From NCBI RefSeq assembly GCF_003410055.1, contig NZ_QUZK01000037.1:1-64000 (forward strand): a stretch of DNA of 64,000 bases, written 5' to 3'. Below the pieces are notes generated by a model. That model was not told the origin of the DNA. It did no database searches and saw nothing but the letters and a program-made list of their open reading frames with translations. Below, one piece after another: positions 40,089 to 44,762 of this stretch (position 1 is the stretch's first letter; every line of letters begins with the position of its first letter). The DNA comes from Wenzhouxiangella sediminis (lineage in GTDB: Bacteria > Pseudomonadota > Gammaproteobacteria > Xanthomonadales > Wenzhouxiangellaceae). Position numbers and translations under genes: made by a program.

Positions 40089-40865
40089 TCAGTCCAGCGC
40101 CTCGATCGCCTGGGTCCAGTGTTCGTCGCGGTCGGCCTCGACCGCCGGCGGGATGACCAGTGTGGTGTATTCCTTGTAGCGCGCCGTCGGCAGGTCGGCC
40201 AGCGTCATTCGGTCAGCCCGAAAGGGCTCGATGGGAAGCTGTGCGGCCTCGTAGAGAATCACCGGCGTTTCCGGCCGATACCAGTGCGAGAGCTTGTCGA
40301 CCAGTAGCTGAAGCCGTTTGGGGTCGGGTTCGAAGCCGATGCAGGCCAGGTTGCCCGCAAGCGCCACCTGCCACAGCAGCACCAGCGCGGTCGGATCGAG
40401 CGAGTGCTTGTAGGCCAGAAAACGGGTCGCCTCGATGGACTGCACGCCCCGCTCGCCCGGATCGAGTCCCAGGTCGGCGTACAAGCAGGCTTCGGCCGAA
40501 ATGCCCGGTTCCATGCGCGCGGCCAGCCCCGCGGCGCGGACTTGCGCGATCGCGTCGTGCGGCACCTGGGCGAATACGCCGGGATGCCCGTAGAACACCG
40601 TGCAGACGCGCTTTCCGCCCGACACGGCTTCCATGATCGATGCCTTCATCGCCCGGTAGGTCTCGCGCCGGTCGGTGCGGTCGTCGTAGTAGTCGGTGAG
40701 GTCGACGGCGTCGGGGCGTCGGGTTGCGATCCAGTCGAAGGCGAGCGCGTCGGCCAGGACGAACACGGTGTCGGCGGCCTGGATCTCGCTGACGGCGCGT
40801 TCGGTGATGTGGCGACCCAGCTGGATGCCGCAGCCCACGACCACCAGTTGGCCTCCTTGCCGCAT
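40089..40865 (-). CDS. probable borosin-type peptide alpha-N-methyltransferase (TP-methylase fold)
   Basis: 258 residues. The fold is the SAM-dependent tetrapyrrole methylase type: N-terminal VVGCGIQLGRHITERA and LADALAF. The active-site region carries R66, Y70 and Y92 (RRETYRAM ... VFYGHPGVFAQ). From memory, these match the R72/Y76/Y98 spacing of the fungal borosin enzyme OphMA, and Y60 would match its Y66. EPGISAEACLYADLGLDPG and SIEATRFLAYKHSLDP are also typical of that enzyme group. No corrin or sirohaem genes are near. It starts three bases after the TPR-GGDEF gene and two genes after the candidate precursor, so it probably N-methylates backbone amides of that peptide in trans. A general TP-methylase of other function is the main alternative. 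Confidence 0.8.
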   Translation of the reverse strand: MRQGGQLVVVGCGIQLGRHITERAVSEIQAADTVFVLADALAFDWIATRRPDAVDLTDYYDDRTDRRETYRAMKASIMEAVSGGKRVCTVFYGHPGVFAQVPHDAIAQVRAAGLAARMEPGISAEACLYADLGLDPGERGVQSIEATRFLAYKHSLDPTALVLLWQVALAGNLACIGFEPDPKRLQLLVDKLSHWYRPETPVILYEAAQLPIEPFRADRMTLADLPTARYKEYTTLVIPPAVEADRDEHWTQAIEALD

Positions 40866-40868
40866 GGC

Positions 40869-42605
40869 TCAGCCGAAGCGCTCGGGCTCGGCGACGACCA
40901 CGCTGTTTCGCCCGCCGCCCTTGGCTTCGTAGAGGGCTTCGTCGGCGCGCTTGCGCAGGTCCTCCAGCGCTTCGTCCGGCGCCAGCTCGGCGACGCCGAA
41001 GCTCATCGTCAGTGGTTTTCCGTTGCCCCCGTACTGGATTTCGGCCAGGTCCTTGCGAACCTGCTCCAGTTGCTCGAGCACCGGCTCGAGCTGGCTGTCG
41101 GGCACGCAGACGGCGAACTCCTCGCCGCCGATTCGCCCCACGTGGCCGAGACCGGGGAAGTTCTCGCACAGGACGCGGGCGACCTGCCGCAGTGCCTTGT
41201 CGCCGGCGATGTGGCCGTGCTCGTCGTTGACCTGCTTGAAGTGATCGATGTCGCCCAGCGCCAGGACCAGCGGGTGGCCCCCTCGGCGGGATTCCTCGAC
41301 CAGCATGCGGGCGGTGTCGAAAAAGCGCGTGTGGTTGCTGACCCGGGTCAGGCCGTCCAGTTCGGAAAGTCGCCGGTAGTGCCGCCGCTCGCGCAGGACG
41401 TGAACCAGCAAGAGCACGAGAATCAGGAACAGGAACAGCGCAAACCCGGTCGCCATCCAGCGCACCCGTGCCTGTTGCCGGCGCGACTGCGCCTCCAGCT
41501 CGGCGACGCGCTTTTGCTCTCGCAGCAGCTCGAGCTCCTGCTCCTGGCGCTGCATGTCGAATTCGACCTCCAGAATGGCGAGCCGGCGAGTGCGGTCCTC
41601 GTCGATGAAGCGATCGCGGGCCTCGCTGTGCGCCACCATGTGGCGATAGGCTTCGGCGAATTCCTCGCGCTCGGCTTGTTGCTCGGCGACCAGCCGGTGC
41701 AGTTCTGACTTGCGGTGCCAGAGCTCTCGTTCGTCGGTGCGCTCGATCAGTTCCTCGGCCAGTTCGATTGCTTGCTTGCTCTCGCCACGTTCCGCAGCCA
41801 GCTGTGCCTGAAGGTGTTTCCCGGTCAGCACGCCGTCCGCCCAGCCGGCCTGACGAAGCCGCTCCAGTCCCCTGTCGGCCCAGCGTTGTGCCGCCGCCAG
41901 ATCGCCTTTTTCGAGAGCGAGGTGGCCCAGCTCCAGCTCGCTGGTGCCGGTATAGACCTGGTCGTTAACGTCCCGACAGAGCGACAGTGCGTTGCGTGCT
42001 GCGGCTCGCGCTTCCTCGTAGCGCTCGGCGTAACGATAGGCGACAGCGAGACGCTGCCCGGCCTGGCACTGCTGACTCGTGTCGCCGGACTGTCCGGCGA
42101 TTGCCATGGATTGTGTTGCGTAGTCGATCGCGCGTTCGTGGTCACCGACAATGCTGTGCACGAACCCGGCCAGGCTCAGAATACGGGATCTCTCGACGAG
42201 GTCGTCGCTTTCGCCGCTGAGTTCGAGCGCCGCCTTCAGTTGTGCAAAGCCCCATTCGTGTTGCCCGACATTGATTCCCAGATTGGCGGCGAGCCGGAGC
42301 GCTCGCAGCCGCTGATCGTCGCTGATCGGGTTCCCGAGCAGTTCCTTGATCTGGCCGATCGCCTTGCCGTAGTCGCCCTGCAATGCCAGATTTCGGATGT
42401 GAAGCAACCGAATCTCCACGCGCTGACGGGGTGTGGCCTCGTCAAGCCGCTTCATCAAGGCATCGATGGCCGGCTGTGAAGCGGGCACTGCCTCGGTCAC
42501 GCTGAGGTGGCGAGCTCGCTCGATCGCCTGGCCCAAGTCCTCGTCCTGGGCGAACGACGAACCGCCCAGCAACGTGAGCAGGAGCATTGCCGTGCGCAGC
42601 TTCAT
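40869..42605 (-). CDS. TPR-GGDEF diguanylate cyclase (borosin locus)
   Basis: 578 residues. A signal peptide (MKLRTAMLLLTLLGGSSFA), about seven TPR-like helical repeats in the periplasm (30-340), a coiled coil (EQELELLREQKRVAELEAQSR), one membrane helix (about 383-405) and a cytoplasmic GGDEF domain. The active site is GGEEF (GRIGGEEFAVC) with DIDHFKQVND for metal, so c-di-GMP synthesis is likely. No RxxD inhibitory site is present. It lies between the precursor gene (30-base gap) and the methyltransferase (3-base gap), so the three are most likely co-transcribed. Confidence 0.92.
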   Translation of the reverse strand: MKLRTAMLLLTLLGGSSFAQDEDLGQAIERARHLSVTEAVPASQPAIDALMKRLDEATPRQRVEIRLLHIRNLALQGDYGKAIGQIKELLGNPISDDQRLRALRLAANLGINVGQHEWGFAQLKAALELSGESDDLVERSRILSLAGFVHSIVGDHERAIDYATQSMAIAGQSGDTSQQCQAGQRLAVAYRYAERYEEARAAARNALSLCRDVNDQVYTGTSELELGHLALEKGDLAAAQRWADRGLERLRQAGWADGVLTGKHLQAQLAAERGESKQAIELAEELIERTDERELWHRKSELHRLVAEQQAEREEFAEAYRHMVAHSEARDRFIDEDRTRRLAILEVEFDMQRQEQELELLREQKRVAELEAQSRRQQARVRWMATGFALFLFLILVLLLVHVLRERRHYRRLSELDGLTRVSNHTRFFDTARMLVEESRRGGHPLVLALGDIDHFKQVNDEHGHIAGDKALRQVARVLCENFPGLGHVGRIGGEEFAVCVPDSQLEPVLEQLEQVRKDLAEIQYGGNGKPLTMSFGVAELAPDEALEDLRKRADEALYEAKGGGRNSVVVAEPERFG

Positions 42606-42635
42606 TCTGAGCGAAGGGGAGGCAAGTGACGCGAA

Positions 42636-42848
42636 TCAGTCGTGGGCGTGGATCGTGCTGTTGATGAGGTGCACGTCCCGCAGGCCGGACAGTCGACGCA
42701 CGGCGTCGACATCCTTGCGTTTCATGGCCTCCCGTGCCTCGTCGGGAATTCCCCGCTTCTCCATGACACCGTCCGGATCCTTTTCGTATTCCGCCGCCAG
42801 CTTGGCGTCGCTGCCGAGATCCTTGAGAAGTTGCTTCAGTGCTTCCAT
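42636..42848 (-). CDS. candidate borosin precursor peptide (short RiPP-like ORF)
   Basis: 70 residues from the ATG at 42848, chosen because AAGGGAGGTAAG sits seven bases before it; an ATG 24 bases upstream is disfavoured. The body (residues 1-53) is charged and helical with AAEYEKDPDGVMEKRGIPDE, resembling the LigA/Nif11-like helical leader of split borosin precursors. After LSG (53-55) comes a short hydrophobic and polar tail, LRDVHLINSTIHAHD, a plausible core with beta-branched residues near the end. Length and layout match the Shewanella SonA type as I recall it. No LigB-like dioxygenase is adjacent. Without a search this stays a strong inference. Confidence 0.78.
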   Translation of the reverse strand: MEALKQLLKDLGSDAKLAAEYEKDPDGVMEKRGIPDEAREAMKRKDVDAVRRLSGLRDVHLINSTIHAHD

Positions 42849-42874
42849 GGTCTTACCTCCCTTTAGGTTCATGC

Positions 42875-42977: not shown

Positions 42978-44762
42978 CTATTGCGCGTCGGCAAACACGA
43001 TTCGGTCGCGGCCGTCGTCCTTGGCTCGATAGAGGGCTTCATCCGCGCGCAACCTCAGCGAGGCGAGCGATTCCCCGGGCCGGGCGCGGGCCACGCCGAA
43101 GCTCATCGTCAGCGGCAGGTCGTCGCCCCCGTAGTCGATGCGGGCAAGAGCTTCTCGCCAGCGCTCGAGCAGTGCGTCGACGGCTTCCCGACCGACGTCG
43201 GGCAGGCAGGCGGCAAACTCCTCGCCCCCGACCCGGCCGAGCCGGGCGCCATCCGGGCATCGGCTGCGGAGTGCGCGGGCAACGCCCCTGAGCGCGCGAT
43301 CGCCCGCCATGTGTCCGAATCGATCGTTGACCCGCTTGAAGTGATCGATATCGCCGATGATCAGGGTCAGGGCATGCTCGTCGGTCTGCGCGTGCTTGAG
43401 CATTTCGGCGGCGGCCTGGAAGAACCGGGTGTGGTTGTCGATCCGGGTCAGGGAGTCGAGGCGCGAGAGCCGACGAAAGTGCTGCCGGCCGCGCAGGACG
43501 TGAGTGAGCACGAGGAGCAGCGCGATCAGCGCCAGTACGGCGGCGCCGGAGGCGAGCCAGCGTATTCGCCGGTCGGTGCTTCGGGACGCCGCTTTCAGTT
43601 CCGCCGCGCGGCGCTGCTCACGGAGCAGGGCGAGTTCTTGCTGCTGCGTTCGGGTATCGAACACGACCTGCAGATAGGCCAGCTGGCGCGCCCGGTTCTG
43701 ATCGAGCAGGCGTCGATGCGCGTCGAGACTTTGCTCCATGTGTTCCACGGCGTTGCGGAATTCACCGCGGGCGGCCGCTGCCCGCGCCAGCATTTCCCGC
43801 GCCTCGGCCACGTAGTCCCAGACTTCCTGATCCTGCAGGCGCGGCAGGGTGTCCTCGAGCAATTCGCGCATGCGATCAAGCCGGCCGGTTTCCTCGAGGA
43901 GTCGCGCCTTGTAGAGGCTTGCTTCGGCAAGTCCCGGGCCGTAGTCGGCGGCCTCGAGTCTTTCGAAGGCTTGAGCGAAAGCCGCCTTGGCGCGATCGTA
44001 CTCGCCGGCATGGCGCAACAGGTCGGCGAATCCGCTCTGGATGGTCCCGGTGAAAAGATCGTCGCCCGATTCAAGGCAGATCGAGACCGCCTCGCGGTAG
44101 TGTTCGAGCGCGGTCTCGTATTGGCCGGCCGACTTGTAGACGAAAGCGAGGCGGCCGTGAACGACGCAGCGGTCTCTCACCGTGCCGTGGGCGCGAGCGT
44201 TGTCGACGGACGCATGGCCGTACTCGATGGCCGTTTCGTGTTCGCCGACGAGCGCGTACAGATACGCGGCCAGGCTGAAAGGCGCGTAGATCTCCTCGTC
44301 GCCTTCGAGCCGGTCTCTCAGTTCCAGGCCGCGAATGATGTACTCGAAAGTTTCTTCCCACTTCCTCGCGATCATGGTCAGGTTGGCCGCGCGGCGGTAG
44401 GCGCGGGCGCGCTGGACTGCCCGCATCGGCCCGGCAAGCAGTTCCCGGAGCGTTGCCAGCCCGGACTCGATTTCGCCCGCCAGCGCCTGGTTTCGCGAGA
44501 CCAGCAGCCAGTAGTCGATTTTCTGGTCGCGCGTGGCCTGCGGCAAGTGTTGCGCCAGCTCGTCCAGCAACTCCTGCGATTCCTGCCAGGGGGCGGAGAC
44601 GTTGAGCTCGCGCGCCCGGTCGAGCTTCTCGCCGAATTGCTCGGTCGTCATTTCTTCTGCCCGGACTCCGACCAGGGCCAGGAGCGAGCAAAGGGCCGCT
44701 CCGGCAAGCAATCCGAAAGTCGTTGTGGCGCCGGTCGACTTCAAGGACGGCTTCCGCGGCAT
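42978..44762 (-). CDS. TPR-GGDEF diguanylate cyclase, paralogue upstream of precursor
   Basis: 594 residues from the ATG at 44762 (MPRKPSLKSTGATTTFGLLAGAAL), a signal peptide or signal anchor. The open frame extends upstream through non-coding sequence. TPR-like repeats span about 40-370; coiled coil QQQELALLREQRRAAELK, one membrane helix (about 400-420) and a GGDEF domain with GGEEF and DIDHFKRVND follow. It is clearly a paralogue of the 578-residue gene, for example LTRIDNHTRFF against LTRVSNHTRFF. No canonical RxxD. It precedes the precursor by 129 bases and may be part of the same operon. Confidence 0.92.
   Translation of the reverse strand: MPRKPSLKSTGATTTFGLLAGAALCSLLALVGVRAEEMTTEQFGEKLDRARELNVSAPWQESQELLDELAQHLPQATRDQKIDYWLLVSRNQALAGEIESGLATLRELLAGPMRAVQRARAYRRAANLTMIARKWEETFEYIIRGLELRDRLEGDEEIYAPFSLAAYLYALVGEHETAIEYGHASVDNARAHGTVRDRCVVHGRLAFVYKSAGQYETALEHYREAVSICLESGDDLFTGTIQSGFADLLRHAGEYDRAKAAFAQAFERLEAADYGPGLAEASLYKARLLEETGRLDRMRELLEDTLPRLQDQEVWDYVAEAREMLARAAAARGEFRNAVEHMEQSLDAHRRLLDQNRARQLAYLQVVFDTRTQQQELALLREQRRAAELKAASRSTDRRIRWLASGAAVLALIALLLVLTHVLRGRQHFRRLSRLDSLTRIDNHTRFFQAAAEMLKHAQTDEHALTLIIGDIDHFKRVNDRFGHMAGDRALRGVARALRSRCPDGARLGRVGGEEFAACLPDVGREAVDALLERWREALARIDYGGDDLPLTMSFGVARARPGESLASLRLRADEALYRAKDDGRDRIVFADAQ

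Follow-up and report, generated by a model that had tools for sequence, protein, structure and literature searches.

The window analysed, a 64,000-nt stretch of Wenzhouxiangella sediminis DNA (contig 32 of a 3.5-Mb genome), carries on its minus strand three genes which follow each other, in the order of transcription, as precursor peptide, TPR-GGDEF sensor and methyltransferase. The precursor gene (42636..42848) encodes 70 amino acids. A Shine-Dalgarno sequence, GGGAGG (42856..42861), is found 7 nt ahead of its ATG at 42848, and for this reason the start is preferred over another at 42872 that would yield 78 amino acids. After a gap of 30 nt comes the gene for a membrane sensor, a predicted diguanylate cyclase (40869..42605, 578 aa), and only 3 nt separate it from the gene for a SonM-like, putative borosin alpha-N-methyltransferase (40089..40865, 258 aa). 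The initial annotation had described a 70-residue ORF, a TPR-GGDEF gene and an enzyme of TP-methylase fold on this strand, and all three are found where it placed them. The operon contains no export, protease or immunity genes, and a scan for promoter and terminator consensus sequences found nothing above expectation. At this locus, the nearest named relative is Wenzhouxiangella sp. 15190.

Directly upstream lies a second TPR-GGDEF gene (42978..44684, also on the minus strand, its exact start not fixed), a paralogue that is 42% identical to the operon sensor. With a dN/dS of 0.32 it evolves faster than the operon copy, and it is probably part of the neighbourhood, not of the core operon. An extra TPR-GGDEF gene is also present upstream of the precursor at L004, L054, L056, L183 and L184. 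At L056, this extra gene (L056:9032-10819) is nearer to the window's operon cyclase than is the copy flanked by L056's own precursor and enzyme, an arrangement suggesting that TPR-GGDEF paralogues swap places.

When the methyltransferase is searched against solved structures with phmmer, it matches SonM at an E-value of 7.5e-65 and the fungal OphMA at about 7e-38, while the first corrin-type match, a uroporphyrin-III methylase, is at 9e-4. The enzyme has neither a fused clasp nor a fused core, and its 258 residues compare with 263 for SonM. The motifs RRETY and YGHPGVF and the residues R66, Y70 and Y92, to which attention had already been drawn, are present. Beside them Y60 aligns with SonM Y58, so that all four SonM active-site residues (Y58, R67, Y71 and Y93, whose importance was shown by mutation) are kept as Y60, R66, Y70 and Y92. 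In an alignment of 118 related enzymes with SonM, the four are retained in 117, the window's included. The exception, L149, lacks all of them and serves as a negative control; though listed among the 118, it was dropped as a borosin enzyme.

The precursor (MEALKQLLKDLGSDAKLAAEYEKDPDGVMEKRGIPDEAREAMKRKDVDAVRRLSGLRDVHLINSTIHAHD) is laid out as a SonA-like borosin-binding-domain leader (residues ~1-55) followed by a C-terminal core (~56-70, LRDVHLINSTIHAHD). Residues 2-58 match the SonA structures (phmmer, E 5e-6), and the part of SonA matched is the one that forms the borosin-binding domain; the peptide is of the split-borosin precursor type, as had been proposed. A weak Pfam match to LigA had made a dioxygenase subunit another candidate, which was rejected because the match is explained by kinship: the borosin-binding domain is structurally akin to dioxygenase caps. 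Compared with Wenzhouxiangella sp. 15190, the peptide is 86% identical and has a dN/dS of 0.096, indicating strong purifying selection and lower than the values for the sensor (0.20) and the methyltransferase (0.18). Of the 42 enzymes in the window's clade, 41 have a homologue next to them, and at the remaining one (L107) the contig ends. From the low dN/dS and these homologues we infer that the 70-aa ORF is a real gene, and the conservation beside related enzymes on which the initial annotation turned is found. The 41 aligned precursors have the leader in common, most of them show the core pattern [T/S]N-[SHG]-x-[IV]-x-A-[YH]-[DE], and both leader and core are conserved across genera. By analogy with SonA, in which L63 and I65 are methylated, the methylated residues should fall within the candidate region LINSTIH. 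No relative of the peptide was detected in the viral contigs searched.

The sensor, whose gene sits between those of the discrete SonA-like precursor and the enzyme, consists of a signal peptide, a TPR solenoid, a long helix with a transmembrane segment, and a GGDEF domain (Pfam: GGDEF 1.8e-32, TPR_12 4.4e-10). Its AlphaFold model (mean pLDDT 86.5) displays the solenoid at residues 24-312 (41670..42536), the long helix at 316-414, and then the GGDEF domain, which covers residues 416-567 (40905..41360) and whose fold matches solved GGDEF domains. There is one transmembrane stretch in the sequence, ahead of the GGDEF domain; together with the signal peptide, it predicts a periplasmic location for the solenoid. 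The GG(D/E)EF motif is intact as GGEEF, the RxxD I-site is absent, and the protein is a predicted diguanylate cyclase. Along its entire length the TPR model aligns with the degron-binding TPR of APPBP2 (Z about 32) and, over residues 20-340, with peptide-bound Rap pheromone receptors (Z about 25). Since TPR solenoids resemble one another, the Rap match is to be taken as a lead only.

The surroundings of the enzyme family were surveyed at 118 methyltransferase genes, each with several kb on either side; they come from the family, order and class to which the window belongs and from the order of genome G742. In this non-random sample, made up of all the near relatives of the window enzyme with the others taken as a spread, 111 of the 118 enzymes have a same-strand sensor gene adjoining or fused to them. 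Most often the sensor is a TPR-GGDEF protein encoded upstream or downstream, and sometimes a TPR-histidine kinase. Twice the partner is a TPR protein with a signal peptide and neither GGDEF nor kinase domain (L187:6589-9036 and L218:6068-7246). One clade, made up of a locus on contig 16 of the window genome and eight relatives, has a 7TMR-DISM-GGDEF sensor with no TPR, and an amine oxidase gene stands between the sensor gene and those of precursor and enzyme. In four loci the cyclase motif is degenerate (L181, L182, L185 and L186, reading SCGAEF, TSGAEF, GAAEL and GAAEF), while TPR and operon are kept. Among the seven enzymes without a sensor, L107 and L009 sit at a contig end or close to one (less than 1 kb remains downstream of L009), L149 is the negative control, and L144, L145, L147 and L148 form a distant separate clade. 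The existence of this sensor-free clade shows that the method does not by itself produce the association, and its four enzymes are counted against a signalling explanation. The diguanylate cyclase is the usual partner of this enzyme family and no local oddity. It is indeed built into the operon, as the initial annotation stated, but it is not peculiar to this locus.

In the enzyme tree, a quick version with SH-aLRT support only, the window enzyme belongs to a 42-member clade (support 100) in which the sensor is upstream of the enzyme in every case that the contig shows. Inside this clade, a single branch (support 96) gathers 14 sensor-enzyme fusions, where TPR, transmembrane segment, GGDEF and methyltransferase form one frame of ~850 amino acids beside a precursor gene. 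The fusion occurs in Luteimonas kalidii and in 13 other genomes, and the fold model of one fusion contains the same domains within one chain. The window itself keeps GGDEF and methyltransferase in separate genes and so does not have the GGDEF-fused architecture seen in Luteimonas at L006:5210-7753 and in 13 other loci. Across the family, methyltransferase distances track those of the TPR more than those of the GGDEF domain (partial r 0.64 vs 0.17), but a column-matched control shrinks this gap to 0.49 vs 0.39, and the preference is for this reason not used as proof.

The founding system has the same components. When Shewanella was searched with SonM, one genome proved 100% identical in that protein and carried a sonA equal to the crystallised SonA. 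Directly past its sonA stop begins a TPR-TM-GGDEF gene of 596 aa, in which the GGEEF is intact and an RxxD site is present. The SonM/SonA system of Shewanella oneidensis (PMC8429565; PDB 7LTC) shares with the window a discrete methyltransferase of ~260 amino acids with the same four residues, a discrete precursor of ~70 amino acids with a borosin-binding domain and a short C-terminal core, and a TPR-TM-GGDEF gene in the operon. It differs in gene order (enzyme-precursor-sensor, against precursor-sensor-enzyme in the window), in its core (SYLVISHGNGD, against LINSTIHAHD) and in the RxxD inhibition site, present in the Shewanella sensor and absent from the window's. Sequence comparison supports a type IV split borosin whose genes are arranged in their own order. 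The paper in which split borosins were defined (PMC8429565) assigns them neither product nor function and states that their final product is not known; the words operon, regulat-, sensor and tetratricopeptide are absent from its main text.

Other known systems resemble the locus in part. OphMA has a homologous methyltransferase, but it is fungal and its core is fused to the enzyme, whereas the window's precursor and enzyme are separate and bacterial. The legend of the figure of borosin types (0-XI) in PMC11395268 names a GGDEF-containing architecture, which ties GGDEF to a borosin pathway, as in the window, and is probably the same as the fusions found in the order; in the window, sensor and enzyme are encoded separately, with 3 nt between their genes. 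Among the papers searched, that legend was the sole link between borosins and such sensors, and none contained both "borosin" and "diguanylate cyclase". In RcbB of Vibrio vulnificus, a TPR controls a GGDEF domain: the TPR represses and a partner protein de-represses, and at the cell pole RcbB works together with RcbA, a further TPR protein (PMC12282931). That paper mentions neither a methyltransferase nor a borosin, and it cites work from 2021 on diguanylate cyclases with a periplasmic TPR in Vibrio parahaemolyticus. The Rap/RRNPP receptors share with the window the TPR solenoid fold and a peptide gene adjoining the TPR gene. However, they are cytoplasmic, occur in Firmicutes and their phages, and bind unmodified peptides, whereas the window's sensor is membrane-bound with a predicted periplasmic TPR; the likeness is one of fold only, not of membership.

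The enzyme family, its active site, the precursor family, the operon, the conserved partnership and the fusions are established at the level of sequence, and a mechanism can be proposed. A SonM-like methyltransferase homodimer would bind the 70-aa peptide by its helical leader and use SAM to methylate backbone amides in the C-terminal core, with LINSTIH as the candidate region. Rather than being a product in its own right, the peptide would belong to a signalling unit together with the membrane protein encoded beside it. In that protein, the TPR solenoid would face the periplasm and the GGDEF domain would make c-di-GMP inside the cell. The peptide or its methylation state could then be read by the TPR, turning peptide maturation into a c-di-GMP signal. 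Backbone methylation of the peptide is very probable, and the functional coupling of peptide, enzyme and sensor is highly likely; both together can still be called likely. That the peptide is a ligand or regulator of the TPR sensor is put forward more tentatively, as a proposal that may well prove wrong. In its favour, the TPR stays constant while the output domain changes, is lost or degenerates, the conserved core is short, and export and protease genes are absent. Against it, a peptide made in the cytoplasm would have no evident route into the periplasm, as the operon has no export gene, the 7TMR-DISM clade has no TPR, and the co-evolution signal is weak under the matched control.

Several other explanations have to be weighed. 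Pfam labels the enzyme TP_methylase only, which would suit a corrin or other small-molecule TP-methylase next to an unrelated small ORF. This is extremely improbable and was rejected: the scores of the NCBIfam corrin models fall well short of the cut-offs, SonM is matched at 7.5e-65, the tree groups the enzyme with borosin enzymes, and both the active-site residues and a SonA-like peptide are present. The data support a borosin N-methyltransferase, not a corrin methylase, in line with the initial annotation. In complete genomes of this type there are 10-53 GGDEF domains, so a TPR-GGDEF gene might merely happen to lie beside borosin genes; with such numbers, however, about 3% or less would be expected on the same strand and this close. 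That 111 of the 118 enzymes have a same-strand sensor, with the gene order varying and with fusions in addition, leaves chance adjacency a negligible probability, and it was discarded.

Two further explanations accept the partnership and interpret it differently. The peptide could be an ordinary secreted borosin product, with a sensor that is merely its local regulator: the TPR would detect the state of the envelope or another ligand, and c-di-GMP or a phosphorelay would govern the synthesis of the methylated peptide. Regulators are common in RiPP operons, the sensor output is exchangeable between GGDEF and histidine kinase, and a second TPR-GGDEF gene stands in tandem upstream. However, the 14 fusions and the TPR-only partners point to a physical partnership more readily than to transcriptional control, the core, unlike that of a diversifying product, shows conservation between genera, and there are no export, protease or immunity genes; we consider this account rather unlikely, though it deserves to be kept in mind. 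The sensor could also be an intracellular client, its cytoplasmic part being bound by peptide and methyltransferase and its cyclase switched by the methylation state of the peptide, with no secretion. In the fusions the GGDEF domain has the enzyme on its cytoplasmic side, the operon has no exporter, and there is the reported precedent (Lee et al.) of a borosin fused to shikimate kinase, in which methylation reportedly lowers the kinase activity. But a switch specific to GGDEF cannot be the general rule, because that domain gives way to a histidine kinase, or disappears, where the TPR is kept, and this possibility is the less probable of the two, and clearly unlikely.

A sensor beside nearly all such enzymes, Shewanella's included, suggests that the peptides belong to a signalling system; within a signalling module built on a TPR sensor, the split-borosin class seems to supply the peptide arm. 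More speculatively, and with somewhat more doubt than confidence, the split borosins of Gammaproteobacteria, Shewanella prototype included, could be methylated peptides that act as signals to, or modulators of, co-encoded TPR sensors with an exchangeable output, which can be GGDEF, histidine kinase or absent. Backbone N-methylation has so far been known for toxins and drug-like cyclic peptides. If the proposal is true, this modification would be placed in bacterial signal transduction, and Gram-negative bacteria would have a peptide-TPR logic like that of RRNPP systems, based on a ribosomal peptide that is methylated. The near-constant partnership with TPR sensors, founding sonMA operon included, provides a lead to split-borosin function. 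It is this general partnership that is worth following. A GGDEF-bearing borosin architecture is already on record in the type legend of PMC11395268.

Variants of the arrangement are seen within the sample. The window's own genome has a second, different split-borosin pair on contig 16 (L070:5954-7140, also at L003), with a precursor ending in ...NKLQFIII; the pair is preceded by genes for a flavin amine oxidase and a 7TMR-DISM-GGDEF protein, and this four-gene set is kept in eight relatives. At three loci (L194, L197 and L217), a single sensor accompanies a tandem pair of borosin methyltransferase genes. In the order-wide clade B (L114-L133), precursors lie between enzyme and cyclase, and, unlike the window type, they have long acidic tails of D/E runs past the core. 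At L142:4291-10236, a TPR-histidine kinase-receiver protein and a TPR-GGDEF protein are encoded around one precursor and one enzyme.
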